Positions 2,275 through 39,515 of a stretch of DNA of 64,000 nt are shown piece after piece; positions within the stretch are counted from its first letter, which is position 1, and each line of letters opens with the position of its first letter. The position numbers and the translations under genes are program-made. The DNA is from an uncultured Lachnospiraceae bacterium (GTDB taxonomy: Bacteria > Bacillota > Clostridia > Lachnospirales > Lachnospiraceae): contig CANQPM010000005.1 of the NCBI GenBank assembly GCA_947625775.1, forward strand, positions 62,001 through 126,000, in the 5' to 3' direction. Below the pieces are notes generated by a model. The model was not told where the DNA came from. It made no database searches and saw only the letters and a program-made list of their open reading frames with translations.

Positions 2275-3330
2275 TGCGTCTTCTATAAGCTTTATGATAG
2301 TGTCTATCGAATTTCTCTGGCTGCTGTTCTGCATGGCGTCTATATACGACTGGCGCGTGAAGTAAAGCTCGTGCACCTTTTCCACCAAGGTTGCGCCCGT
2401 AAGGTATTCCTCGTCAGCCACCATTGAAAAGCCCTGCGATTCAAAGCTTTGCGCGTTTAAAATCTGGTCGCCGCGGCTTGCATGTGTGGGAAGCGGTATC
2501 AAAAGCGCGGGCTTTCTAAGCATCAGCAGTTCACAGATGGCGTTTGCGCCTGCGCGCGAAATCACAATATCCGCCATGGCAAACAAATGCTTTAAGTCGT
2601 CTTTTACATATTCAAACTGTTTGTAGCCTTCCTTATTTAAAAGCAGGTTGTCAATCTTTTCCTTGCCGCAGATGTGTACAATCTGATAGTCCGCAAGCAG
2701 CTGCGGCAGAGCCTCGCGCACAAGCGTGTTTATGCCTGCAGCCCCTAAGCTGCCGCCGATAACCATGATAATAGGCTTGCTGCTGTTGAAGCCGCACATT
2801 TCCATGCCGCGCTCGCGGTTTCCGCGCAGAAGCTCCTCGCGCACAGGAGAGCCCGTGAGAATTGCCTTGTCATGCGGTAAATCCTTTAAGGTTTCGGGGA
2901 AATTGCAGCATATTTTTGTGGCTACGGGTATGCACAGCTTGTTTGCAAGTCCTGGCGTCATGTCTGATTCATGTATGATGCAGGGGATTTTTAAAGCCGC
3001 CGCGGCGCGCACTACTGGCACGCTCACAAAGCCGCCTTTGCTGAAAACTACGTCGGGTTTTAGTGTTTTGAGCGTCTTTTTGGCTTCGGTAAAGCCTTTG
3101 ATGACGCGGAAAGGATCGCTGAAATTTTTGGGATCGAAATATCTTCTGAGCTTGCCCGTGGAAATGCCGTAATACGGGATATGGTAATCCTCGATTAATC
3201 TTTTTTCTATTCCTTCATATGAGCCGATATAATGTATATCATAGCCAAGTTCTCTAAGCTTGGGGAAAAGCGCGATATTGGGAGTGACGTGCCCTGCTGT
3301 CCCGCCCCCCGTAAAGACGATGCGTTTCAT
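2257..3330 (-). CDS. murG: UDP-GlcNAc: undecaprenyl-PP-MurNAc-pentapeptide GlcNAc transferase MurG
   Basis: MurG adds GlcNAc to lipid I to make lipid II at the inner face of the membrane, the last cytosolic step of peptidoglycan synthesis. The 357-residue protein has the usual length and landmarks: N-terminal GGGTAGHVTPN (lipid I side), SKGGFVSVPV, the HESDMTPGLAN segment, TGSPVREE, then the UDP-GlcNAc-binding half with GGSLGA and SRAGANAICELL. It is a GT28 (GT-B fold) enzyme. The start is supported by GGAGG 10 bases upstream. Here it is alone on the minus strand rather than inside a dcw cluster; the adjacent TSCPD gene on the same strand lies about 65 bases upstream and may be cotranscribed. 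Confidence 0.96.
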   Translation of the reverse strand: MKRIVFTGGGTAGHVTPNIALFPKLRELGYDIHYIGSYEGIEKRLIEDYHIPYYGISTGKLRRYFDPKNFSDPFRVIKGFTEAKKTLKTLKPDVVFSKGGFVSVPVVRAAAALKIPCIIHESDMTPGLANKLCIPVATKICCNFPETLKDLPHDKAILTGSPVREELLRGNRERGMEMCGFNSSKPIIMVIGGSLGAAGINTLVREALPQLLADYQIVHICGKEKIDNLLLNKEGYKQFEYVKDDLKHLFAMADIVISRAGANAICELLMLRKPALLIPLPTHASRGDQILNAQSFESQGFSMVADEEYLTGATLVEKVHELYFTRQSYIDAMQNSSQRNSIDTIIKLIEDAANGRA

Positions 3331-3827: not shown

Positions 3828-4712
3828 TTAGTCCTGCTTGGCGGGGTTTACGTGTACCATTATATGTTTTACCTTGGAGAAGTTCTGTTCTATGGCGTCG
3901 TGTACGCATTCGGCGATTGAGTGGGCTTCGCGGAGGGTTTTGCTGCCGTCGGCGCTTATTTCTATGTCTACGTATATTTTGTTGCCGAATACGCGGGTGC
4001 GCAATAGGTCTATGTTTAATACGCCTGGCTGGGAGATGGCGCAGTTTCTAAGCTGTTTTTCGGTTTCCTCGTCGCAGGCTTTGTCAACCATTTTGTCTAC
4101 GGCATCCATGAAGATGTCGTATGAGGCTTTTTCGATAAATACGCATATCACAAGGCTTGCCAATGAGTCCATTATGGGAAAGCCTAGTCTTGAGCCCAGT
4201 ATGCCGATAAAAGCGCCGATTGACGAGAGTGCGTCGGAGCGGTGATGCCATGCGTCCGCCATAAGCGCGCCTGAGTCTATTTTCTTTGCGACAAGGCGGG
4301 TGTACTGGTACATGGCTTCCTTTACGAGTATTGAAATGACGGCGGCAATCAGAGCTAAGCGTTTGGGGATTTCGAGGATTTCGTAATTGCCTGAAAGTAT
4401 GTTTGAGAGGGAAGTCCAGCCGATACCTAAGCCTGTGGCGCACAGTATTGTGGCGAGGATAATCGCCGCCACACATTCTAGGCGCTCATGCCCATACGGG
4501 TGGTCTTTGTCGGAGGCTTTGCTTGAAAGCTTGACGCCGACAATCACGACAAAGGTGCTGAATACGTCTGAGGCGGAGTGAATGGCGTCGCTCACCATTG
4601 CGCCCGAATTGGCAAAAATTCCTGCAAACAGCTTAAAAATAGAAAGAATCGTGTTTGCGGCGATGCTTACAAATGATACTTTCATGGCGGATTTTTCGTA
4701 GTTATTTTCCAT
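3828..4712 (-). CDS. Cation diffusion facilitator (CDF) family metal exporter
   Basis: A 294-residue CDF antiporter with about six membrane segments and a C-terminal cytosolic metal-sensing domain. The start MENNYEKSAM is chosen because GCGAGGT lies about 7 bases upstream; an upstream in-frame start lacks a ribosome site. Metal-site motifs are visible: SDAIHSASDVF in helix 2 and ADAWHHRSDALS in helix 5, both of the HxxxD type, plus HPYGHERLE, typical of CDF proteins. The family exports Zn, Fe, Mn, Co or Ni in exchange for protons. The leader carries a NiCo riboswitch, which points to Co2+/Ni2+ (possibly Fe2+) as the physiological substrate. It is transcribed alone. Confidence 0.93.
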   Translation of the reverse strand: MENNYEKSAMKVSFVSIAANTILSIFKLFAGIFANSGAMVSDAIHSASDVFSTFVVIVGVKLSSKASDKDHPYGHERLECVAAIILATILCATGLGIGWTSLSNILSGNYEILEIPKRLALIAAVISILVKEAMYQYTRLVAKKIDSGALMADAWHHRSDALSSIGAFIGILGSRLGFPIMDSLASLVICVFIEKASYDIFMDAVDKMVDKACDEETEKQLRNCAISQPGVLNIDLLRTRVFGNKIYVDIEISADGSKTLREAHSIAECVHDAIEQNFSKVKHIMVHVNPAKQD

Positions 4713-4889
4713 GCTTTTACCTCGCTTTCTGTTGCCTCTGCAAGCTCTTTTGGCTAAAACGCAATGATAATGGTTTTTGCAATTGTATAACAATAAATGT
4801 TTGTAAAAGCTGTGCCATACGCGCATGCTTAAAACAAAAACCAAAAGATTATTGCGCTTGCGTTAATTTACGGGTGTTTGGGGAAATAA
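4713..4889 (-). other. Leader between riboswitch terminator and CDF start
   Basis: About 175 bases of untranslated leader between the terminator T-run and the exporter start. I see no second aptamer or open frame here. The sequences CGGGTGTTT (4871-4879) and AAACACCCG (4899-4907) could form a 9-bp stem that would compete with the terminator. Confidence 0.4.
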
Positions 4890-4942
4890 AGAAAAAAGAA
4901 ACACCCGCGTACCAGTATTAGCAATTACTGTCCCGCAGATGT
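4890..4942 (-). terminator. Expression-platform terminator of the NiCo riboswitch
   Basis: Arms 4926-4942 and 4901-4917 form a 17-position stem with two mismatches and several G-U pairs, with an 8-base loop, followed on the minus strand by TTCTTTTTTC. Its 5' arm is the same sequence that closes the 3' side of the riboswitch aptamer (CTGCGGGACAGTA), so the two folds exclude each other. Metal binding should therefore prevent termination and turn the exporter on. Confidence 0.8.
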
Positions 4943-5013
4943 TGAGGCTATCCGCTGCCGCGTATGCGACCCGACTCCAAGGCGCTATCCGCGCCACGGT
5001 CTGCTCAGATTGT
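4922..5013 (-). promoter_or_regulatory. NiCo (czcD) riboswitch upstream of the CDF exporter
   Basis: Read on the minus strand, the leader contains the conserved czcD/NiCo aptamer features in order: TCTGAGCAG, a GC-rich hairpin (GGCGC / GCGCC), the 18-base block CGGGTCGCATACGCGGCA that aligns base for base in length with the family form CGGG(N2)GC(N4)GCGGCA, and a closing CTGCGGGACAGT. The ends CAAT..CTG and CAG..ATTG can form P1. NiCo riboswitches bind Co2+/Ni2+ cooperatively at a four-way junction and typically control CDF exporters, as here. The call rests on alignment to remembered examples; a covariance-model search would settle it. Confidence 0.88.
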
Positions 5014-5151
5014 ACTGTAGCTTTATGCAGTGCAAAGAGTTTAATTTAATATAGCATATGTATATGCTGATTTCAAGCATAGTGGCGACTAATCTTTGTT
5101 AGGTGTGCAAACATGGCATTTTAATTTTAGTGGAAAAATTTGCATTCATAT

Positions 5152-24112: not shown

Positions 24113-25663
24113 TTACTCTTGTGTCCTCACATCTTTCCTTTTCAGATACAAAACACTAAGCGCATTAATCACAACAATATACAGCACTGTCCAGTCGGCA
24201 AACTGCCACAGGTCGATAATTCTTTGCGGATTATTTGCGCGCAGCCCCACGCTTAAAAGCGAATAGGGCAGAAGATAATAAAGCCCCTTGCTCGTGATAA
24301 GCATACCGACAACTCCGCCGACAAGCCCGATAGCGATAGGCACTGCGAAGCTCCTTATCACAAGCGACAGGAAAAGCTGCACGGAGCATACGGCAATACC
24401 GCCGAATATGCCGCATATAGTCCATTCTCCAAGCTCTTTAGGCAGCGGCAGGGAAAGTCCGCATATAAAGCCGCTGAAAACATAAAGACAAATCATAAAC
24501 ATAATAGTAGCCGTTGTCATGACCGCACATATGCAGAGCTTGCCAAACACAAGCCTAAAAGGTGACACAAGTGTCATAACAGTGTTCCAGTTAGTGCCGC
24601 TATGCTCCAGCCGCCACAGATAGCTTGCATAAACGCCGATAAGCGGCGGCAGGAAAAAGAAGGCAAAAAACAGTGAATGCTGGCTCCATAACGAATACCA
24701 TGCTTTTTTCAAAACTCCCAGATTGTTCATATAATTCATCGAGCCTATAACCGCCGAGATTAATGGAAGTATGATAAAGGCAAGCCATATAGGCGTGCGC
24801 TTTATCTTTATAAACTCTACAGGCATACGGGGTATCTTAATTTTGCTTAATCTGCGCTTGCGCCCGAAAATCCCAAAGCGCGCGATGCCGCTGAAATTTA
24901 AGCCTTCTGTTTCCATTTTGTTAAAAAGCGCCCATCCGACTGACAGCAGCAGGACAATCCATATGGCGGTGATGATTTCCGCGCCGTTATGCTGGAAATG
25001 ATATCTGTATTTTATGACGCGCGTGTCAGGATCCCAGTCCATCCAAACAAAAGACGAAGCGCCGTAAAGCCCCCATGGGATAAGGCGGTTTACGATAAGC
25101 GAGGGCGGCAGGTACATCAGAAACAGTCCGCACATACTCCCGAGCAGCCCCGCGCAGAGCGTGACAGCCTGATTTGTAAACGCAAACGCCAAAATGAGAT
25201 GTAGCAAATAAATCAGAAAGCTTACGGCGACTGTTACCGCGAAATACCGCGCATACGCCCACAAGTCAAGGCTGTCTGTATATCCGAAATGCTTTCCGAA
25301 AAAAATTAAAAAGCCAAGCTGGCTGGCGGCAAAAATCAGCACGCACACAAAGCCATATAGAAGCTTTGCAAAATAGATGCTGTTTCTGCTTTGAAAGGTT
25401 TCGAGCATTTTCCATGTGTTTCCCTTATGCTCCATGTCTGTCAGGCGGCTTGCAAGTACGGCTATGAATGTAGGTGTCAGAATGGCGTTTAAAACAGGCA
25501 TCATGTAAATCTGGCTAATCCAGCCTTGCGCTAAGTCTTCTGCGTCAAGTCTGTCGGAAAATGCCCACATTGACCACAGAAACTGCATAAGTATCAGTCC
25601 TGCGACTACAAGCCATACGCCGCGCCGCTTAGTCTTGCGAAGTTCCAGAAATAATCCTCTCAT
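24113..25663 (-). CDS. ABC-2 type permease, two permease units fused in tandem
   Basis: A 516-residue protein with about 12 membrane segments. It looks like two related permeases joined: residues ~1-255 and ~280-516 each begin with a basic KxKR stretch plus a hydrophobic segment (LELRKTKRRGVWLVV; EFIKIKRTPIWLAFI) and each carries the same motif at about residue 75-85 of its half (RLTDMEHKGNTWKML; YLWRLEHSGTNWNTV). This pattern is typical of lantibiotic-immunity or bacitracin-type exporters, whose two permeases are usually separate genes. It overlaps the ATPase gene by 4 bases (ATGA), so they form one transporter. The substrate is unknown; peptide antibiotic export or immunity is likely from family context. 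Confidence 0.85.
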   Translation of the reverse strand: MRGLFLELRKTKRRGVWLVVAGLILMQFLWSMWAFSDRLDAEDLAQGWISQIYMMPVLNAILTPTFIAVLASRLTDMEHKGNTWKMLETFQSRNSIYFAKLLYGFVCVLIFAASQLGFLIFFGKHFGYTDSLDLWAYARYFAVTVAVSFLIYLLHLILAFAFTNQAVTLCAGLLGSMCGLFLMYLPPSLIVNRLIPWGLYGASSFVWMDWDPDTRVIKYRYHFQHNGAEIITAIWIVLLLSVGWALFNKMETEGLNFSGIARFGIFGRKRRLSKIKIPRMPVEFIKIKRTPIWLAFIILPLISAVIGSMNYMNNLGVLKKAWYSLWSQHSLFFAFFFLPPLIGVYASYLWRLEHSGTNWNTVMTLVSPFRLVFGKLCICAVMTTATIMFMICLYVFSGFICGLSLPLPKELGEWTICGIFGGIAVCSVQLFLSLVIRSFAVPIAIGLVGGVVGMLITSKGLYYLLPYSLLSVGLRANNPQRIIDLWQFADWTVLYIVVINALSVLYLKRKDVRTQE

Positions 25664-26385
25664 AAGCTTTCCGCACCTCCTGTCAGCTTTAAGAATACGT
25701 CTTCCAGTCCGTCGCCTTTTGCTTCAAGCTCCTGCATAGTGCCTTGGAAGATAAGTTCGCCGTGGTTGATGATGCCGACCATGTCTGCCATTTGCTCTAC
25801 TTCGTTGAGCAGGTGGCTTGACACGATTACGGTCATTTGTCTTGTCAGCGGGAGGTTTTTGATAAATTTGCGTATTTCCTGTATGCCTGCGGGATCGAGG
25901 CCGTTTGTCGGCTCGTCGAGTATTAGTATGCGCGGATTGCCTAGGAGAGCCATGGCTATGCCTAGGCGTTGTTTCATGCCGAGGGAATATTGTTTTACTT
26001 TTTTGTCTCTTTGCTCTAGGAGGCGCACGGTGTCAAGTACTTGCTCGATTTCTGCGGCGGGTGTATTTTTTAGTTTGGCGATGATTTGCATGTTTTCGAG
26101 GCCTGTCAGATGTCCGTAATAGCTTGGGCTTTCGATTAGGCTGCCTGTGTTTTTTAGTATGGAGAGGCGGTTTTTGTCTGTTATTTGTTCTCCGAAAAAT
26201 GAGATGGTTCCTTCGGTTGGTTTCAGTAGTCCTAGTAAAAGCTTTAGGGTGGTGGTTTTGCCTGCGCCGTTGGGACCTAGGAAGCCGTAGACGCAGCCTT
26301 TGGGGACTTTTAGGGCGATATTTTTTACGCGTATGTGGTTGTTTGTGCTTTTGGTTAGGTTTTTTGTTTTGATGATGTAGGTCAT
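25660..26385 (-). CDS. ABC transporter ATP-binding protein
   Basis: A 241-residue ATPase. Walker A GPNGAGKTTT at residues 37-46, signature YSLGMKQRLGIAMAL, Walker B ILILDEPTNGLDPAG and the switch SSHLLNEVEQ are intact. The closest type is the antimicrobial-peptide export/immunity group with ABC-2 permeases. The start ATG follows AAAGGAG. It is translationally coupled to the permease. A two-component system lies divergently about 500 bases away and may control it, as is common for such transporters in Firmicutes; that link is inference. Confidence 0.95.
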   Translation of the reverse strand: MTYIIKTKNLTKSTNNHIRVKNIALKVPKGCVYGFLGPNGAGKTTTLKLLLGLLKPTEGTISFFGEQITDKNRLSILKNTGSLIESPSYYGHLTGLENMQIIAKLKNTPAAEIEQVLDTVRLLEQRDKKVKQYSLGMKQRLGIAMALLGNPRILILDEPTNGLDPAGIQEIRKFIKNLPLTRQMTVIVSSHLLNEVEQMADMVGIINHGELIFQGTMQELEAKGDGLEDVFLKLTGGAESL

Positions 26386-26428
26386 TTGGGGGCTCCTTTC
26401 TGGGGGTAATGGTTTGATGTTTGTGAAA

Positions 26429-26439
26429 AGGGGGGGGGG
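26429..26439. other. Run of ten G in the intergenic region
   Basis: A ten-base G homopolymer follows GTGAAAA between the ABC operon and the hairpin pair. Such runs are uncommon at this base composition and could vary in length; it lies upstream of the ABC ATPase gene. Confidence 0.5.
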
Positions 26440-26452
26440 TTATAAGCCGACC

Positions 26453-26531
26453 GAATTTGTGCGAAATATACAAAAACGCGACTAGTGCGCAGTGCGAATC
26501 GTCGCTTATTTTGTATATTTCACACAAATTC
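26453..26531. repeat. Tandem hairpin element, copy 1
   Basis: Arms of about 30 bases (26453-26482 and 26501-26531) surround an 18-base loop TAGTGCGCAGTGCGAATC. The stem has one mismatch plus a small asymmetry near the loop. Copy 2 lies 60 bases further on. The arms differ between copies at several positions, yet each copy pairs with itself, so the changes are compensatory, while the loop is conserved. No frame is inside. It may be a REP-like mobile element or a structured RNA. Confidence 0.75.
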
Positions 26532-26590
26532 TACGTTTTCGTATATAGCTCGACATAATGTGGCAGCTACGAAAGCTTTCTAAGCCGTTC

Positions 26591-26670
26591 GAATTTAGTC
26601 AAAATATATAAAATCGCGACTTGGTGCGCGATGCGAATCGTCGCTGATTTTATATATTTTGACTAAATTC
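26591..26670. repeat. Tandem hairpin element, copy 2
   Basis: Arms 26591-26620 and 26640-26670 pair almost perfectly around TTGGTGCGCGATGCGAATC. The arm segment TTTAGTCAAAATA replaces TTTGTGCGAAATA of copy 1, with matching changes on the other arm. Both copies are preceded by a GCCG block. The rest of 26386-26888 is AT-rich; I see no further element in it apart from the putative promoter region of the response regulator. Confidence 0.75.
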
Positions 26671-26888
26671 TACATTATTGAATGGAACTCCACAAACATT
26701 TGTAAATAACAATCTTACTATAACTTTGTTACTTTAAATAAAAATGACGAGAACCTTACATTTACCTTAAAAATTTGGCTTAAATTACCACAATGCATAA
26801 AAAATAAGATATACTAAAGCATAGATAAAAATTTTTTAGACAATTTGATGGGATAATAGATGTTGAAAGCAAAGGAATATGAGGGAAA

Positions 26889-33469: not shown

Positions 33470-33676
33470 GATTTCACCTCCCGATATCCCAATCATCTTT
33501 TACGGCATTAATTCCGAATCGCCGTAACCTTTTAGCCGTTTATGAAGTTTTGTGTTTAGAAAAATTTTGCATATATTTTAATATCACTATTTAATATTAT
33601 TATAGTAAAACAAGCGTTTCAACATAAAATTGTTTAGCTGCAAGGCAGGGCTGCCTACATTCTGATAAAATTAAAG

Positions 33677-33710
33677 AATCCCGTCGAAGCTATGAACATT
33701 CGATGGGATT
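33677..33710 (-). terminator. Terminator after the JAB operon
   Basis: Arms AATCCCGTCGAA (33677-33688) and TTCGATGGGATT (33699-33710) form a 12-bp stem with one G-U pair and a 10-base loop. On the minus strand it is followed by CTTTAATTTT. It is also U-flanked on the plus strand. Confidence 0.75.
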
Positions 33711-33884
33711 TTGCTGTTGCATATTTCTGTTTTTCTTATAATCCTGTATGAAGGATATAAATTCCCTGCTTTTTTGTATGCTCTTTTGCAATTCTTTTTC
33801 ATCTACCTTATAATCGGGCTCAGGCATGCGCAATTCCAACGGTTCAAAATTATAAATCACATCATTTAAAGCTGTTTTTCCCAT
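33690..33884 (-). CDS. Small protein of unknown function downstream of the JAB gene
   Basis: A 64-residue protein starting MGKTALNDVIYNFEPL behind TTAGGAGGCGC; a longer in-frame start lacks a ribosome site. It is charged, proline-containing at the N-terminus and helical at the C-terminus (QKSIQKSREFISFIQDYKK). No family recognised. It lies 16 bases after the RadC/JAB gene and overlaps its terminator, so it is the last gene of that operon. Confidence 0.6.
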   Translation of the reverse strand: MGKTALNDVIYNFEPLELRMPEPDYKVDEKELQKSIQKSREFISFIQDYKKNRNMQQQNPIECS

Positions 33885-33900
33885 AATGCGCCTCCTAATC

Positions 33901-34503
33901 TTATCTATAAAACAATCCTGCTTCACTGCATTTTGCCAAAAAAGACAAAGATGCCAAATACATCTCTGCTGCTGGAGAATCTGTATTTAAGCCTTCAATA
34001 CATTCTTTAAATAACAAGAATGCGGATTTGTAATTATATCCTTCATCACGTTTTAAATAATGTACTGTGCCTTGGTTTGATACTACTACAATTACCTCAA
34101 TCATCGGATGGCATATAAAAAAATGAATATCCTGCAATGAAAATGTTTGTGTTGATGGATGATTGTGCAGCACTACCACCGCGACGGATTCTTTTGATAC
34201 AATAATATGATTGGATAGCGTATCTGCAAGTATGTCTACTTCGTGCTCTGTTCCCAATGACACGCCGAAACATTCAAGGGGGTTTTCAGCTCCCAAATCG
34301 CAGGTAATGGCAACTTCGTTGCTGTTATTTTTTTCCTTTGAAAGAAGAAGTACGTCTTTTGCCAATTCCTGCATAATTTTGTTGCGGCTTTCTGAGAAAC
34401 CGTCATACTTAATAAAAGGAACTTTGTCTATGGCAATATCCGTTATATATACTTTTCGGTCTCGCTTTTTGGCCTGCTCTAATTCATATATGCTTTCTGT
34501 CAT
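33901..34503 (-). CDS. RadC/JAB-type metallopeptidase-like protein
   Basis: A 200-residue protein. The JAMM-type motif LHNHPSTQTFSLQDIHF gives HxHP...S..D, the metal site of RadC-like JAB domains, with the upstream SKESVAVVVL strand. The first 95 residues do not match the HhH part of RadC, so it is a stand-alone JAB protein. Members are often found with mobile or defence genes; whether it cleaves isopeptide bonds or acts on nucleic acid is not known. It has its own good promoter and is cotranscribed with a 64-residue protein. Confidence 0.75.
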   Translation of the reverse strand: MTESIYELEQAKKRDRKVYITDIAIDKVPFIKYDGFSESRNKIMQELAKDVLLLSKEKNNSNEVAITCDLGAENPLECFGVSLGTEHEVDILADTLSNHIIVSKESVAVVVLHNHPSTQTFSLQDIHFFICHPMIEVIVVVSNQGTVHYLKRDEGYNYKSAFLLFKECIEGLNTDSPAAEMYLASLSFLAKCSEAGLFYR

Positions 34504-34560
34504 ATTATCTCCGATTAGCGGCTGTTAATCACTTTTTGGCTGTTTATTTTATCTGGTATT

Positions 34561-34589
34561 ATTATAAGAAATTTTAAACATTCTGTCAA
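34561..34589 (-). promoter_or_regulatory. Promoter of the JAB operon
   Basis: On the minus strand: TTGACA (34584-34589), a 17-base spacer, TATAAT (34561-34566). It is a consensus sigma-A promoter, 58 bases before the start codon. Confidence 0.85.
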
Positions 34590-34722
34590 TTTAATGTGAA
34601 GATATTTTCAGTTCGCAACTTTTTTTAAATGATTTCCCTTCCATTTCCTGTTAATATAAACCCAAGTCAAGCGAAAGCACAACCCCTTCCGCATTGACAG
34701 TCCTATAAATTACATAACCCTT

Positions 34723-34838
34723 CAGGAGGTAGCTCAACTGGGAGAGCACTGAAAAAATAAGTCATGACCGTGGCTTTAACAGCAAAATACACCCAAACTG
34801 TATGGCAGCATTTGGCGGTTCGAGTCCGCTCCTCCTGA
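34723..34838 (+). ncRNA. tRNA-like RNA 1, anticodon arm replaced by a 66-base insert
   Basis: The ends form a complete tRNA frame. Acceptor stem CAGGAGG (34723-34729) pairs perfectly with CCTCCTG (34831-34837), with A as discriminator base. TA, then the D-arm GCTC / GAGC (34732-34735, 34744-34747) with loop AACTGGGA. The T-arm GGCGG / CCGCT (34814-34818, 34826-34830) has loop TTCGAGT. No CCA is encoded. Where the anticodon arm and variable loop (about 22 bases) should be, there are 66 bases (34748-34813) that can fold into AAGTCA/TGGCTT and ATACA/TGTAT hairpins. It cannot serve as a normal elongator tRNA. It lies about 125 bases before rtcB; a second tRNA-like RNA follows rtcB. Its role is inferred: an RNA-repair substrate, decoy or Y-RNA-like scaffold. 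Confidence 0.8.
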
Positions 34839-34841
34839 CTA

Positions 34842-34926
34842 AGGCGGCGAGGCAGTGAAATGGTCGTTTCACAGACAGCAGATATTTATGGGGAATCCAT
34901 TGCAGGTTAGAAGCCTGCCGCCGCCT
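34842..34926 (+). ncRNA. Structured leader between tRNA-like RNA 1 and rtcB
   Basis: AGGCGGC (34842-34848) plus GGCAG (34851-34855) pair with CTGCC (34915-34919) plus GCCGCCT (34920-34926), leaving a GA bulge: 12 bp in all. Inside is the hairpin GTGAAA / TTTCAC (34855-34872), and GCAGG / CCTGC offers a competing fold. It follows the tRNA-like RNA by three bases, so both may be part of one longer RNA or of the rtcB 5' leader. Confidence 0.6.
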
Positions 34927-34962
34927 GCACATTATAAAAAATTTATGGAGGGAGTGAAATCG

Positions 34963-36156
34963 GTGAGTGATTTAAAAATTTTCACAGACAATATAGAGGA
35001 GGGCGCGCTGGAGCAGATAAATACTCTGATAAGCCAGCCCGCGTTTGAAAACTGTAAAATCAGAATAATGCCCGATGTTCACTCAGGCACAGGCTGTGTT
35101 ATCGGCTTTACAGCGGACCTCGGCGACAAGATAATTCCAAATATCGTAGGCGTGGATATAGGCTGCGGAATGCTCACGGTCTGCCTTGGCAAAGTCAATA
35201 TAGATATGCAGAGGCTTGACGCGGCAATAAAAAAGCGTGTCCCCAGCGGAAAACGCGTGCATGAGGGCAGGCAGGTCAGATTTCCCGAGCTGCAAAGCCT
35301 TTATTGCTACAGGGAGCTAAAGGACTCAAAACGTCTGGAAAGAAGCATTGGCACGCTCGGCGGCGGCAACCATTTTATAGAGCTTGACACAGACGATGAC
35401 GGCGAAAAATACCTGATTATCCACAGTGGCAGCAGAAACTTAGGCGTTCAGGTGGCAAACCTCTATCAAAAGCTTGCCGTTGAGCTTATGGAGGGCAAAG
35501 GCGATTTATATGAAAAACAGGCAAAGCTGATTGAGGAGTACAAGGCAGCAGGCAGAAAATCCGAAATACAGGCAGCGATAAAGGAGCTGCACAGACTCTT
35601 TAACCCAAATCCGCTCAATATTCCGAGAGAACTCTGCTACCTCATGGGTGAATACAGGGAAAAATACCTGCACGACATGAAAATTTGTCAGGAGTTTGCA
35701 TCATTAAACCGAAAAACAATCGCAGACGCAATACTTGATGAGCTTGGCATCATAGAGCAGAGCCGATTTGAAACAATACATAACTATATAGAATTTGGCT
35801 CAAATATAGTGCGCAAAGGCGCAATTTCCGCAAAAAGCGGCGAAAGGCTTCTGATACCGATAAATATGCGCGACGGCTGCATAATCGGCGAGGGTAAAGG
35901 TAATTCTGACTGGAATATGTCCGCGCCGCACGGGGCAGGGCGCGTTATGAGCAGGACAAAGGCAAAGGAAAGCCTCTCGCTTGATGACTTTGAAAAGTCG
36001 ATGGAGGGCATTTACACCACATCGGTAAGCGAGGCGACAATCGACGAAAGCCCGATGGCGTATAAACCACTTAACGAAATACTCGCAAACATAGGCGACA
36101 CAGTAAGGGTAATCAAGCTGATAAAACCGATATACAATTTTAAGGCTGCTGAGTAA
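34963..36156 (+). CDS. rtcB: RNA-splicing ligase RtcB
   Basis: RtcB joins 2',3'-cyclic phosphate (or 3'-phosphate) ends to 5'-OH ends using GTP and Mn2+, repairing cleaved tRNA and other RNA. The GTG start at 34963 follows GGAGGGAG and gives VSDLKIFTDNIEEGALEQ, which is where the family begins; longer in-frame starts are not conserved. The 397-residue enzyme is complete: MPDVHSGTGCVIGFTADLGD, D65 and C68 in VGVDIGCGM (Mn ligands), LGGGNHFIEL, IHSGSRNLG, ASLNRK, and the guanylated His at about residue 323 in APHGAGRVMSR. It is flanked by two tRNA-like RNAs and followed by a DUF2828 gene, a context resembling Rsr/Y RNA/RtcB operons. Confidence 0.96.
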   Translation: MSDLKIFTDNIEEGALEQINTLISQPAFENCKIRIMPDVHSGTGCVIGFTADLGDKIIPNIVGVDIGCGMLTVCLGKVNIDMQRLDAAIKKRVPSGKRVHEGRQVRFPELQSLYCYRELKDSKRLERSIGTLGGGNHFIELDTDDDGEKYLIIHSGSRNLGVQVANLYQKLAVELMEGKGDLYEKQAKLIEEYKAAGRKSEIQAAIKELHRLFNPNPLNIPRELCYLMGEYREKYLHDMKICQEFASLNRKTIADAILDELGIIEQSRFETIHNYIEFGSNIVRKGAISAKSGERLLIPINMRDGCIIGEGKGNSDWNMSAPHGAGRVMSRTKAKESLSLDDFEKSMEGIYTTSVSEATIDESPMAYKPLNEILANIGDTVRVIKLIKPIYNFKAAE

Positions 36157-36196
36157 ACAGTTAAGTATTAATCAGTGCCATGTCAAGCTTTATTTT

Positions 36197-36274
36197 GGGA
36201 CCTATGCAGCAAATTAAAAGGTTAATTTATCGCCAGAAGCGTAAAGATGCGGTTCAACTCCGCAAGAGGTCCTG
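36197..36274 (+). ncRNA. tRNA-like RNA 2 between rtcB and the DUF2828 gene
   Basis: A tRNA-sized RNA of about 78 bases. Acceptor-like stem GGGACCT (36197-36203) pairs with AGGTCCT (36267-36273; one G-U). The T-arm is canonical: TGCGG / CCGCA (36248-36252, 36260-36264) with loop TTCAACT. Two extra bases (AG) lie between T-arm and acceptor. The D-arm is replaced by an elongated AT hairpin AAATTAA / TTAATTT (36211-36228) with loop AAGG, and the anticodon position by a minimal CGC/GCG hairpin with loop CAGAA. No CCA is encoded. A normal tRNA gene does not look like this; a tRNA mimic or degenerate tRNA does. Confidence 0.65.
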
Positions 36275-36363
36275 TTTTTGCAAATGCCCATAAAACCATA
36301 ATAGACAGTTGCGAACACATTCCACAATTACCTAAAAACCATAATGAGGAAAGGAATGATACC

Positions 36364-37827
36364 ATGAATTTTATAAACATCTTTAAAAAAGAGGCAACAC
36401 ACACATACACAGAAAACGGCGCACAGGCGCTGAACACCACGGGCGATGCCTGTCTTGACTTGTTCAGCACGGCGGGCGCTTTGCGCAACGCTGACGAAAT
36501 CAGGATAAACACGCTATTTGCCGAGGCATACGCCGAAAATCCGCTTTTTGCCACAAAAATCGCATTTTACGCAAGGGACATCAGAGAGGGCTTAGGTGAA
36601 AGATGTGTTTTTCGCACGTTTTTGAGATATATGGCGGACAATCACCCAGAGGCGCTGCGCCAAAACCTCGACCTCGTAGGCGTATATGGCAGATACGATG
36701 ACCTTTATGCGCTGATAGGCACGCGGCTCGAAGACGAGATGTGGTTCGCCATGAAAAAGCAGTTTGAGGAGGATTTGGAAAATCTCGAAAAGGGCAACGC
36801 CATTTCACTCCTTGCAAAATGGATAAAGACCGCCGACGCAAGCGCAAGCAGCACCCGCAGGCTTGGCATTTTAACCGCGCAAAAGCTCGGCTACAGCGTC
36901 TATGACTTCAAAAGAATCGTGCGCAGAATGAGAAAACAGATAAACGTAGTCGAATGTCTAATGTCGGCGGGACGCTGGGACGAAATAAAGTATTCGGAAG
37001 TTCCAAGCCGCGCGATGATGATTTACAGAAAAGCATTTGTGCGCCACGACGCGCAGCGCTTCAACACGTTTATAAACAGGGCGGCAGCAGGCGAGGAGAA
37101 GATTAATTCCGCTGCGCTCTATCCATATGATATTGTACATAAAATATGCATGGGCGAAAGCTCAGACGTGCTTGAGGCGCAGTGGCGCCAGCTCCCAAAT
37201 TACATTGGGCAGGACATAAATGCCATAGTGATGGCTGACGTATCGGGCTCAATGACAGCATGTGGCGGCATACCGCTGTCAACCTCCATAGGGCTTGCCA
37301 TATATTTTGCGGAAAGAAACACAGGCGCGTACCACAACCTGTTTATGACCTTCAGCGCCGATCCGCAGATAGTAGAGCTAAAAGGCGAGACGCTGCAGCA
37401 GAAGATATTACAGGTGCAGAAGTCCAATTGGGGAATGAGCACAAACCTTCGGGCGGCATTTGACAAGATTTTGCAGATAGCCTGCAAAAGCCATGCTTCA
37501 CAGGACGAAATGCCAAAGTCAATAATAGTTATCTCGGATATGGAAATAGACAGCTGCGACGCCCACAAAGGCGAGTGGACATTTTACGACAAGATGGCAA
37601 AAAGATACCGCGCTTACGGTTACGAAATCCCGAACATAGTATTTTGGAACGTAAACAGCCGCCACAACATATTCCACGCCGACAAAAACCGCCGCGGCGT
37701 ACAGCTCTGCAGCGGTCAGTCAGCTACGGTATTTAAGCAGCTCATATCCTGTGTAGGCAGCACCCCCACAGAAATGATGCAGCATGTAATCAACTCAGAG
37801 CGGTATGAGTGCATCAAAGTAGGATAG
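36364..37827 (+). CDS. DUF2828 protein: TROVE-like helical repeats plus vWA domain (Ro60-like)
   Basis: A 487-residue protein starting MNFINIFKKEATHTYTENG behind GAGGAAAGGA; upstream in-frame codons are discounted because they fall in the tRNA-like RNA region. The N-terminal ~270 residues are helical repeats with FYARDIREGLGERCVFRTFL, the DUF2828 equivalent of the TROVE-module signature. A von Willebrand A domain follows with an intact MIDAS motif MADVSGSM (D292, S294, S296) and VISDMEIDSC. Ro60/Rsr proteins bind Y RNAs and misfolded RNA with the same two-module plan. Here the protein follows rtcB and a tRNA-like RNA, suggesting an RNP partner. DUF2828 itself has no established function. Confidence 0.85.
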   Translation: MNFINIFKKEATHTYTENGAQALNTTGDACLDLFSTAGALRNADEIRINTLFAEAYAENPLFATKIAFYARDIREGLGERCVFRTFLRYMADNHPEALRQNLDLVGVYGRYDDLYALIGTRLEDEMWFAMKKQFEEDLENLEKGNAISLLAKWIKTADASASSTRRLGILTAQKLGYSVYDFKRIVRRMRKQINVVECLMSAGRWDEIKYSEVPSRAMMIYRKAFVRHDAQRFNTFINRAAAGEEKINSAALYPYDIVHKICMGESSDVLEAQWRQLPNYIGQDINAIVMADVSGSMTACGGIPLSTSIGLAIYFAERNTGAYHNLFMTFSADPQIVELKGETLQQKILQVQKSNWGMSTNLRAAFDKILQIACKSHASQDEMPKSIIVISDMEIDSCDAHKGEWTFYDKMAKRYRAYGYEIPNIVFWNVNSRHNIFHADKNRRGVQLCSGQSATVFKQLISCVGSTPTEMMQHVINSERYECIKVG

Positions 37828-37842
37828 TGTGAACGCAAAAAT

Positions 37843-37883
37843 AAAATCCGCCAACAGCGGATATACACTGTCGGCGGATTTTT
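37843..37883. terminator. Bidirectional terminator between DUF2828 and thiW
   Basis: Stem AAAATCCGCCAACAG / CTGTCGGCGGATTTT with one mismatch and a 10-base loop, T-run on both strands. It closes the RNA-repair locus (plus) and thiW (minus). Confidence 0.88.
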
Positions 37884-37885
37884 GT

Positions 37886-38392
37886 TTACTCATTCAGATA
37901 ATTAAAAACTCCCGTTTTTCTAAGCGGCTTTATCAAAAACGCCGATATAACCGCGCCGCATGCGGTAGAAATAAGAAACGGCACAATATAAGCATAAAAA
38001 GCTATATCCCCCGCACTCTGCCCCATAAGGAAAATCGCCACAGGGTAAGCGCACAGCCCGCCAAGCACAGCCGTGCCGAATACCTCGCCCAAAAGCGTGA
38101 GCGCGATATTCTTAGTCCTCCAGAAAACAATCCCGCACAGCAAAGCGCCAAACATGCTGCCCGGAAACGCCATAAGGCTTCCAAGCCCGAAAAGATTGCG
38201 CAGCAGGCTTGCGATAAACGCCACAGCCACGCCGTACCAAGGACCTAGCGCCACAGCGCACAGAATGTTAATCATATGCTGCACAGGCGCGCACTTGCTC
38301 CCAAATACAGGAAACGAAATCAGGCTTCCCGCCACGGCGACAGCGCACAAAATTCCAGAAACACACAGTTTTTTAGTATTCACTTTTTTCAT
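37886..38392 (-). CDS. thiW: ECF transporter S component ThiW (predicted thiazole/thiamine precursor uptake)
   Basis: A 168-residue membrane protein with about five hydrophobic segments. Conserved ThiW-type stretches are FPVFGSKCAPVQHMINIL, LGPWYGVAVAFIASLLRNLFG and FPGSMFGALLCGIVF. ThiW proteins are S components that use the shared EcfAAT module, which is not encoded here. The family is normally under TPP riboswitch control and near thiM/thiE genes; neither is seen. Start behind AAGAGGAGAGAG. The upstream 180 bases form an unusual structured leader whose cryptic reading frame overlaps the thiW start codon. Confidence 0.88.
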   Translation of the reverse strand: MKKVNTKKLCVSGILCAVAVAGSLISFPVFGSKCAPVQHMINILCAVALGPWYGVAVAFIASLLRNLFGLGSLMAFPGSMFGALLCGIVFWRTKNIALTLLGEVFGTAVLGGLCAYPVAIFLMGQSAGDIAFYAYIVPFLISTACGAVISAFLIKPLRKTGVFNYLNE

Positions 38393-38568
38393 TTTTCTCT
38401 CTCCTCTTGAAATAAATTGAGAACGGCGGTAACAGCGGCGTCCTCTTGAATAAAGGTCGGTCGAAGCTCAATTGCTTCCTCTCACGCCGAAACACGGCTT
38501 CCCATCGCTGCTGTCTACAAGACACAGGGCGCTCCCCCTCTGCCCGCCCGAAACATCGGGATTGCCAT
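38389..38568 (-). other. Structured thiW leader with a stop-interrupted cryptic frame
   Basis: From an ATG at 38568 behind AAGGAAGTGAG a frame of 60 codons runs to a TGA overlapping the thiW ATG, interrupted by TAG (codon 18) and TGA (codon 29). It reads MAIPMFRAGRGGAPCVL, TAAMGSRVSA, then EEAIELRPTFIQEDAA and on. The same DNA is dense in hairpins on the minus strand: CCCGA/TCGGG, GGGCG/CGCCC, TGTCT/AGACA, GCCG/CGGC, GAAGC/GCTTC. It lacks the conserved TPP blocks CTGAGA and the GAACCTGA-type segment, and no cobalamin box is evident. I read it as a decayed small gene or, more likely, a structured RNA leader. Confidence 0.5.
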
Positions 38569-38712
38569 TCTCACTTCCTTTCCAAAAAGAGTCTATGAAT
38601 ATTCTTCTGCTAAATCATAGCACGGATTGATGGAAAAGTCTACAGGTTTTGATTTTCAGATTTATTTTTATTGTAATAAGCCAGATTTTATTGGGAAATT
38701 CCATAAACAAAC

Positions 38713-38754
38713 CGTGCGATTTGCATTGACAAAATCGTACAATATAGGCATAAT
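38713..38754 (+). promoter_or_regulatory. Promoter and operator of the toxin-antitoxin operon
   Basis: TTGACA (38726-38731), 17 bases, CATAAT (38749-38754). The inverted repeat GTGCGATTT / AAATCGTAC (8 of 9 pairs; 38714-38739 region) straddles the -35 box, as expected for autorepression by the antitoxin. Confidence 0.65.
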
Positions 38755-38788
38755 AAAAGTGAAATCAATCAATGAGGAGGTTTTCGAT

Positions 38789-39004
38789 ATGTCCATAACC
38801 GCAACGGAATTAAAAACAAATCTCAGCAAGTATCTGCTGCTTTCTGCCACGGAGGATATATATATCACGCGCAACGGAAAGGTAATCTCTAAACTGACGA
38901 ATCCATTCCAAGAGCGCGTAGATATAGCAAAATCCCTGTTTGGAATCCTTCCCAATGATGCGTCGCTTGAAAAGGCAAAAAAAGAAAGGGCGGATAAAAT
39001 ATGA
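38789..39004 (+). CDS. Phd/YefM-type antitoxin
   Basis: A 71-residue protein starting MSITATELKTNLSKYLLL behind GAGGAGG; a longer frame upstream is not used. The N-terminal part is the Phd/YefM DNA-binding and dimerisation fold (ATELKTNLSKY, EDIYITRNGKVISKL). The C-terminal tail should wrap the toxin. Its stop overlaps the toxin start by 4 bases (ATGA), and an inverted repeat lies on the promoter, both typical of autoregulated TA operons. Confidence 0.88.
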   Translation: MSITATELKTNLSKYLLLSATEDIYITRNGKVISKLTNPFQERVDIAKSLFGILPNDASLEKAKKERADKI

Positions 39005-39429
39005 GAGCCTTGATTGATACCTGCATCATCATTGATGCCCTCCAAAGTCGCGAACCCTTCTGCAATAGCGCGCAGGCAATATTTATTTCAGCCGCAAACA
39101 ATCAATTTATAGGCTGTATCACGGCAAAATCAGCGACGGACATCTATTATTTAATGCATCACCATACACATGACGATAAAGCGTCAAGAGACGTGCTGTC
39201 AAAGCTTTTTGCGATTTTTGATGTTCTGGACACGGCTGGAATGGATTGCCGCCGTGCGATTCCTTCAGCAATTTCCGATTATGAAGATGCCGTCATGGTG
39301 GAAACCGCCGTTCGGGCAGAAGTGGACTGTATCGTCACGCGAAATCAATGTGACTATAAAAAGTCCGAGATTCCCGTTTATACATCGGAAGAATTTGTTA
39401 AAAAACTGGAGACATTCAACAAAGAATGA
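39001..39429 (+). CDS. PIN-domain toxin (VapC-like ribonuclease)
   Basis: A 142-residue PIN domain of the PIN_3 type. Acidic active-site residues are visible: D6 in LIDTCIIIDAL, the glutamate/aspartate pair in AISDYEDAVMVETA (D and E near residue 95), and the aspartate in CIVTRNQCDYKKS. VapC-type PIN toxins cleave tRNA or rRNA. It is translationally coupled to the Phd-type antitoxin, a mixed phd-vapC arrangement that is common. It may be relevant that an RNA-repair locus lies 1.5 kb away, but no link is shown. Confidence 0.9.
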   Translation: MRALIDTCIIIDALQSREPFCNSAQAIFISAANNQFIGCITAKSATDIYYLMHHHTHDDKASRDVLSKLFAIFDVLDTAGMDCRRAIPSAISDYEDAVMVETAVRAEVDCIVTRNQCDYKKSEIPVYTSEEFVKKLETFNKE

Positions 39430-39453
39430 TAGAAAGCAAATAGAAAGTAAAAT

Positions 39454-39515
39454 AAAAAAAGGGGCTATCGCTTTATAGAATGAGAATTCAAAAGGTATTG
39501 CGCAGCTCCTTTTTT
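39454..39515 (+). terminator. Possible terminator after the TA operon
   Basis: AAAAAAGG.GCT and AGCTCCTTTTTT can pair over about 11 positions, but the loop is long (about 38 bases). Weak candidate. Confidence 0.35.

Follow-up and report, generated by a model that had tools for sequence, protein, structure and literature searches.

Why should a gene for the RNA ligase RtcB and a gene for a DUF2828 protein lie among small RNAs that resemble parts of tRNA? This question is raised by a locus of an uncultured Lachnospiraceae bacterium, at positions 34723-37827 of a 64,000-nucleotide (nt) stretch of DNA, hereafter the window (assembly GCA_947625775.1, contig CANQPM010000005.1, positions 62,001-126,000 of the forward strand). 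The order of the locus, obtained by reading positions 33500-39500 and from scans, is RNA1-RNA2-rtcB-RNA3-DUF2828/vWA protein, with all elements on the (+) strand. We know of no tested function for DUF2828. The answer favoured here, with slightly better than even confidence, is that the locus would specify a ribonucleoprotein (RNP) resembling that of Ro60 and Y RNA, in which tRNA parts would be shown on the RNAs, most likely to bait enzymes that cut tRNA, and RtcB would reseal.

Three small RNAs with a common stem and motif

All three small RNAs at the locus have a stem with an ACAGCAA-like motif directly after it (Table 1). A preliminary description of this DNA had reported two RNAs and had overlooked RNA2. 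Both strands of the whole window were scanned for a 7-base-pair (bp) acceptor stem joined to a T arm, and exactly two matches were obtained, RNA1 and RNA2. RNA1 has an open 7-bp acceptor stem, a D arm, a T arm with TTCGA and a long insert within the anticodon arm, as the preliminary description had proposed. It gives 90.7 bits with the covariance model R1 described below, but (as L001) it is among the 54 training rows of that model. RNA2, which is not a training row, gives 28.2 bits, and its folding energy has a z of -2.84 relative to shuffles.

The outer stem of RNA3, GGGACCT/AGGTCCT, is followed directly by ATGCAGCAA; GCAGCAA stands after its 5' strand, a T arm is enclosed, and the folding energy z is -2.36. 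A stem followed by ATGCAGCAA with the T arm enclosed gives RNA3 the look of a Y RNA and not of a tRNA with an acceptor stem. The second RNA of the preliminary description is real and carries a T arm, while its supposed acceptor is the open stem of a Y-RNA-like molecule.

Table 1. Features of the locus within the window (L003, L004, L039 and L040 are loci of relatives)
Feature	Position	Strand	Basis and remarks
RNA1, tRNA-order form	34723..34837	+	Scan; model R1; conserved in L003 and L004, same kind in L040
Closed hairpin inside RNA1	34759..34785	+	AAGTCAT-GACC-GTGGCTT, then TA-ACAGCAA; proposed binding module
RNA2, tRNA-order form without D arm	34843..34925	+	Scan; model R1; folding energy; conserved in L003 and L004, similar kind in L040
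rtcB, RNA ligase	34963..36156	+	GTG start (GTG at 34954 also possible); Pfam and structure alignment
RNA3, open-stem form	36197..36273	+	Sequence reading; folding energy; conserved in L003, L004, L039 (sister species)
DUF2828/DUF7788 Ro-like vWA protein	36364..37827	+	ATG start; Pfam; PHROG 850; invariant residues

Ordinary tRNAs were rejected as an identity for these RNAs, as ARAGORN found no tRNA anywhere in the window and Rfam at gathering thresholds reported nothing at this locus. At the gathering scores of Rfam 15, tRNA was the sole family matched at these RNAs across the window, 15 loci of relatives and nine phage loci. Some relatives of RNA1 attain the Rfam tRNA score with the insert included, and one is called an undetermined tRNA by ARAGORN. 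The missing CCA was dropped as proof that the RNAs are not tRNAs, as the four host tRNAs that were checked also lack it; CCA is encoded in 79 of 448 ordinary tRNAs across 170 loci.

The tRNA-order RNAs were aligned using 54 RNAs picked from 65 diverse ones, with 10 of the 54 rows taken from eight genomes of the window's genus. The imposed structure, a tRNA plus the insert hairpin, was fitted to the same alignment, which favours it; 95.8% of cells are paired and 26 of the 28 pairs show changes on both sides. When the partners were slid by 1-3 columns as a control, pairing fell to 35-46%. The hairpin that matches the one in RNA1 shows double-sided changes at 7/7 pairs in this alignment (A2). The acceptor, D, hairpin and T stems were also recovered by RNAalifold without a given structure. 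The insert lies between pairs 2 and 3 of the anticodon stem, which is thereby split; its outer two pairs are 86% paired, and its inner three are 67-77% paired, with gaps there in 12-15 of the 54 rows.

Model R1 was applied to 60 relatives under stricter filters, and 61 candidates were scored in each genome. Matches of ordinary tRNA length reach at most 59.7 bits, and 43 matches exceed 60 bits. Such a search in relatives had been proposed as a check in the preliminary description, and it returned 41 of the 43 strong matches on the same strand as DUF2828 and 52-1410 nt upstream of it. The remaining two are in genome G025, at a contig end, and in genome G028, where an rtcB of another subfamily follows directly downstream. 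R1 matches above 60 bits occur in 20 of 23 genomes with DUF2828 vs 2 of 37 others (Fisher p 8e-11); eight of these 22 R1-positive genomes supplied model rows and match partly by construction, and 14 supplied none. In G028 (contig 59, L211 468-1444 (-)), the match is a tRNA-order RNA of 80.9 bits, and the frame of the adjacent rtcB is 243 amino acids long. No DUF2828 is present within the 4000 bases examined of this 5478-base contig.

The insert interrupts the 5' side of the anticodon stem and could also be read as an intron, with the hairpin-ACAGCAA segment excised and the halves joined by RtcB into working tRNAs. In 24 of the 54 RNAs, the product of excision would be a tRNA-like body with a canonical loop, and RtcB is a tRNA ligase. 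However, the same module also occurs in open-stem and permuted RNAs, in which nothing could be spliced into a tRNA, and for this reason spliced tRNA genes were rejected as very improbable. The absence of a D arm from RNA2 and the first base after the acceptor, which is A, C, G or T in 18, 16, 13 and 7 of the 54 RNAs, respectively, also speak against splicing. CCA is encoded in only one of the 54, which is weak evidence in the same direction.

Circular permutation and the possible relation to Ro60 and Y RNA

The RNAs of this family represent one fold in two circular permutations. In the tRNA order, that of RNA1 and RNA2, the acceptor is open and the motif stem is a closed internal hairpin. In the order of Y RNA the stem is open, and RNA3 has this bacterial Y RNA topology, with a stem built from both ends and the T arm alone of the tRNA parts. 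The ACAGCAA stem is likewise formed by both RNA ends in the mycobacteriophage LeBron, the Enterococcus phage EfV12-phi1 and the Bacillus phage FADO. In these three phages a short loop connects the acceptor strands, and the D arm follows the T arm; a permuted tRNA-like form is also found at locus L103. Other open-stem RNAs retain the T arm alone, the anticodon stem-loop alone, or neither. The permuted RNAs match no Rfam 15 family at gathering scores.

The YrlA RNA is described as a circular permutant of tRNA (PMC11472068, PMC8394870), and its arm order is that of the LeBron, EfV12-phi1 and FADO RNAs. The full open-stem forms share with YrlA (PDB 6CU1) an end-formed stem and permuted D, T and acceptor arms, whereas RNA1 and RNA2 are open at the acceptor instead of at the stem. 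Of two features of a bacterial Y RNA of the YrlA type, the end-formed stem is present in RNA3 and in 120 of the 134 RNAs of the genome survey below, and is replaced by a closed hairpin in RNA1 and RNA2. The permuted tRNA module is present in LeBron, EfV12-phi1, FADO and L103; RNA1 is in tRNA order, and RNA3 has only the T arm.

Two further observations were made in the EfV12-phi1 locus (L203). A stretch with CATAAAGAA at its end occurs four times, at about 4241-4294, 4427-4480, 4581-4634 and 4763-4816, just ahead of ACAGCAA-type RNAs, and each copy contains a covarying hairpin (GTTCC/GGAAC, GCTTC/GAAGC, GCTCT/AGAGC). A transfer-messenger RNA match lacking its 5' end (48.2 bits) occupies positions 1-240.

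The protein of the window matches DUF2828 (1.3e-42) and DUF7788 (3.3e-43) in Pfam. Its residues D292, S294, S296, T360 and D392 are invariant across 68 sequences and presumably form the metal ion-dependent adhesion site (MIDAS) of a vWA domain, in agreement with the vWA assignment of the preliminary description. The start of the gene is placed at ATG 36364 and not at 36247, because RNA3 overlaps the longer open reading frame (ORF). Alignment of the DUF2828 profile with a TROVE profile built from two sequences only gave an hhalign probability of 76% (E 2.3e-5, columns 204-403), and the overlap takes in the last part of the putative helical half together with the vWA domain. The profile of these two TROVE proteins matches the Rsr and Ro60 structures. 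The DUF2828 protein also matches the RNA-binding protein family PHROG 850 (3e-137), and no NCBIfam match was found for three DUF2828 proteins. Many mycobacteriophage DUF2828 records, LeBron with its permuted RNAs being in the same family, are annotated as "Ro-like RNA binding protein" and are about 35-37% identical to the window protein over nearly the full length, although the Ro link in those records is one of name only. Y RNAs in mycobacteriophages are credited by PMC12282133 to Chen et al. 2014.

Another parallel is the Listeria phage cka15, for which Rsr was the best HHpred match of CKA15_055 and an Rsr with a Y RNA was proposed (PMC12282133, 2025). CKA15_055 is 35.9% identical to the window DUF2828 protein (2.7e-100). 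Three stem-ACAGCAA RNAs were located just upstream of its gene, at record positions 25,290-25,394, 25,409-25,462 and 25,497-25,552, and no tRNA-like part was seen in these three. Three very highly transcribed non-coding regions are reported within 2 kilobases (kb) upstream of 055 (PMC12282133), and expression of the predicted RNAs is plausible. The RNAs are left undefined in the accessible portions of that paper, and the strongest transcribed region lies elsewhere.

In Salmonella, Rsr, YrlA/YrlB and RtcBA are encoded together in one operon (PMC7790460, PMC9879122). That operon, like the locus of the window, combines an RNA-binding vWA protein, tRNA-mimic RNAs and RtcB. In the present system, DUF2828 replaces TROVE and the RNAs carry the ACAGCAA module; it also differs in having permutants in tRNA order, up to four RNAs in an array and many anticodon loops. 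Our literature search, for which subscription papers were mostly outside the scope, found neither RtcB together with DUF2828 nor this RNA family; an earlier description, of the mycobacteriophage RNAs in particular, is possible.

These likenesses would also be accounted for by an RNP scaffold serving RNA decay or quality control, comparable to Rsr-YrlA-PNPase, in which the tRNA-like part docks nucleases or modification enzymes and no bait is involved. PNPase is tethered by YrlA, which is built in this way (PMC8394870), and the open-stem DUF2828 RNAs of LeBron, EfV12-phi1 and FADO have the same arm order. A permuted tRNA-like RNA also lies upstream of the TROVE gene of locus L215. A scaffold leaves unexplained the anticodon triplet, which varies among orthologues while the body is mostly constant, and the neighbouring RtcB; it is a possible explanation, to which we assign a minor share of confidence. 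The L215 RNA itself (2476-2611 (-)) comprises a T arm, a closed acceptor, a D arm and an anticodon loop CUGUUAA, and it contains no ACAGCAA.

Spread of the pairing and linkage to RtcB

The pairing of DUF2828 with these RNAs was surveyed in the best 80 of 503 relatives. Three loci were dropped because DUF2828 starts less than 400 nt from the locus start or because no usable match was obtained, leaving 77. Of the 77, 61 have one RNA or more in the 900 nt preceding DUF2828, for a total of 134 RNAs (120 open, 14 closed). Dinucleotide shuffles of the same regions gave 0.4 RNAs per replicate over all 77 loci. In 754 control windows taken from these loci, with strands counted separately, 10 matches were obtained. 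RNAs were found up- or downstream of DUF2828 in at least 60 of 73 distinct usable viral loci and in at least 7 of 10 named phages. The viral and phage counts, and those split by RtcB below, are lower bounds because the strict scanner misses L011, L013, L014, L019 and L021, which are positive in a looser scan.

The RNA-bearing loci come from Lachnospiraceae, Erysipelotrichaceae, Ruminococcus, Treponema, a Thermoguttaceae bacterium and others, mostly as metagenome bins whose placement may err. The window DUF2828 protein matches 681 of 50,697 phage records, and few genomes carry DUF2828 when the phylum is sampled evenly (2 of 101, with the window's own counted).

Within the window's genus, tRNA-order RNAs occur in 20 of the 21 genomes with DUF2828, at up to four per locus; in the exception, G007, DUF2828 lies 155 bases from a contig end. 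A lack of conservation beside rtcB and DUF2828 in related genomes was one of two outcomes named as refuting in the preliminary description, and the RNAs are in fact kept in such genomes. The layout in Acetatifactor sp. HAN002 (L040), RNA1-RNA2-rtcB-RNA3-DUF2828, is that of the window, and its rtcB is 79% identical. Two sister species, with DUF2828 proteins 97% identical to that of the window, have RNA1-RNA2-RNA3-DUF2828. Because HAN002 keeps the layout of the window, rtcB was probably lost in both sister species.

The rtcB product of the window matches PF01139 (4.3e-58). Its Cys (VDIGCG) and His (GNHFIE, HSGSR, HGAGR) motifs align with 2epg, a structure of the RtcB family, and we take these residues to be catalytic, in agreement with the complete active site noted previously. 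The gene probably begins at one of the two GTG codons of Table 1 and not at the mechanical ORF start, 34855, because RNA2 overlaps the mechanical ORF.

RtcB is present in 22 of the 80 genome loci, directly downstream of DUF2828 in 19 of them with 48-199 bp between the matches. In the others it lies 2.4 kb downstream (L096), upstream as in the window (L040), or upstream and of another subfamily (L050). It was also found in 2 of 90 viral loci and in 1 of 11 phage loci (L199, Listeria phage). The RNAs are present in 22 of the 22 loci with RtcB vs 38 of the 54 without, and RtcB is an accessory part of the system. In genome G056 (L024/L214), DUF2828 appears beside rtcB as three separate matching pieces and looks like a decayed copy.

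The Ro60/Y RNA analogy of the preliminary description stands in part. It is supported by the RNAs that accompany DUF2828, the recurrence of RtcB, the Ro-like annotations, the HHpred match in cka15 and the hhalign result; it is corrected in that the RNAs number three, RNA1 and RNA2 are opposite permutants of the Y topology and RtcB is accessory.

Elsewhere in the window, a Phd/YefM-like antitoxin (under the curated cut-off) and a PIN_3 protein form a pair downstream, at 38790-39429, with no link to the RNAs seen. A NiCo riboswitch (73.5 bits) lies at 4926-5018 (-). PADLOC reported no system. The promoter and terminator scans barely exceed shuffles (7 vs 5.1 and 7 vs 4.7, respectively).

Displayed tRNA parts and possible function

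Outside the common module, many of the RNAs resemble a piece of tRNA: in some it is an anticodon stem-loop, in others the acceptor with the D and T arms. The split anticodon stem is complete and carries a canonical 7-nt loop (U33, purine 37) in 24 of the 54 tRNA-order RNAs, with 16 triplets, compared with a mean of 0.56 and a maximum of 3 in 50 rounds of shuffling. The genome survey comprises 131 distinct RNAs; a canonical anticodon stem-loop is seen in 25 of them, with 17 triplets (shuffles: mean 0.96, maximum 3, 50 rounds), and the T-arm motif in 52. One orthologous RNA was followed through 11 genomes of the genus; its triplet is GUU, UAU, GAU, UCU, CCU or CUU with U36 constant. The mean triplet entropy is 0.93 vs 0.20 elsewhere in this RNA, and its body is largely constant.

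We infer from these sequences that a Ro-like RNP forms and functions here. The DUF2828 protein most likely binds each RNA through the common module, in which ACAGCAA comes after a 6-9 bp stem, and the tRNA-order RNAs are probably trimmed by tRNA-processing enzymes. The tRNA-like parts would then act as bait, chiefly for anticodon nucleases among the enzymes that cleave or handle tRNA, and RtcB, where present, would reseal cut tRNA or the RNAs themselves. A role as competitive inhibitor was raised for the tRNA-like domain of YrlA by the authors of PMC7790460, and the bait idea therefore has precedent. A more specific form of it, offered tentatively, is a battery of re-targetable baits in which each RNA would show a different tRNA part and the loops would switch identity between species; anticodon nucleases from phages or hosts would cut the bait in place of the tRNA, and RtcB would reseal it, with phages carrying the system as a counter-defence.

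Several results weigh against the bait-displaying RNP. The folding energy of RNA1 is no better than that of shuffles (z -1.10), so that the support for RNA1 is comparative, and RNA1 is outside the set of 24 with a canonical anticodon loop. RNAalifold did not predict the split anticodon stem from the 54-row alignment. In the genome survey, 60 of the 131 RNAs have neither a T arm nor a canonical anticodon loop, so tRNA parts are not shown by every RNA, and the scan found no RNA upstream of DUF2828 in 16 of the 77 usable loci. In the orthologue with the changing triplet, 5 of 118 three-column windows, the anticodon's included, vary at least as much as the anticodon; the triplet is thus among the most variable parts and not the sole one. 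Pfam identified DUF2828 and DUF7788 and no TROVE in the window protein. A search of the PDB with the DUF2828 profile (hmmsearch) returned three sequences, with a best E of 0.21, and no Ro60. The most transcribed region of cka15, 26,236-26,727 (OR088597.1, L209), the one of the three reported regions for which coordinates are given, contains no ACAGCAA motif and likely holds a different RNA. RtcB was not found in 58 of the 80 loci (flanks of up to 6 kb, some ended by the contig), and it is absent between the RNAs in both sister species.

The same 58 loci count against the proposal that the RNAs are circles whose ends are joined by RtcB, for which reason two permutants would be tolerated. One fold does occur in two permutants, the ends are adjacent in a stem in both, and all 22 loci with RtcB have the RNAs. 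The canonical Y RNA is nevertheless itself a permutant of tRNA, and we know of no canonical Y RNA that is a circle, which leaves circular RNAs improbable.

Taken as an RNP that displays tRNA parts, the locus suggests a little-known RNA-protein machine that may handle or guard tRNA. Likely RNA partners are now defined for the DUF2828 protein, which is found in many bacteria and large phages, and RNAs without an Rfam 15 family of their own are described. The permutants, the arrays and the shifting anticodon loops make tRNA mimicry by Y RNAs and the role of bacterial RtcB directly testable, laboratory phages included.

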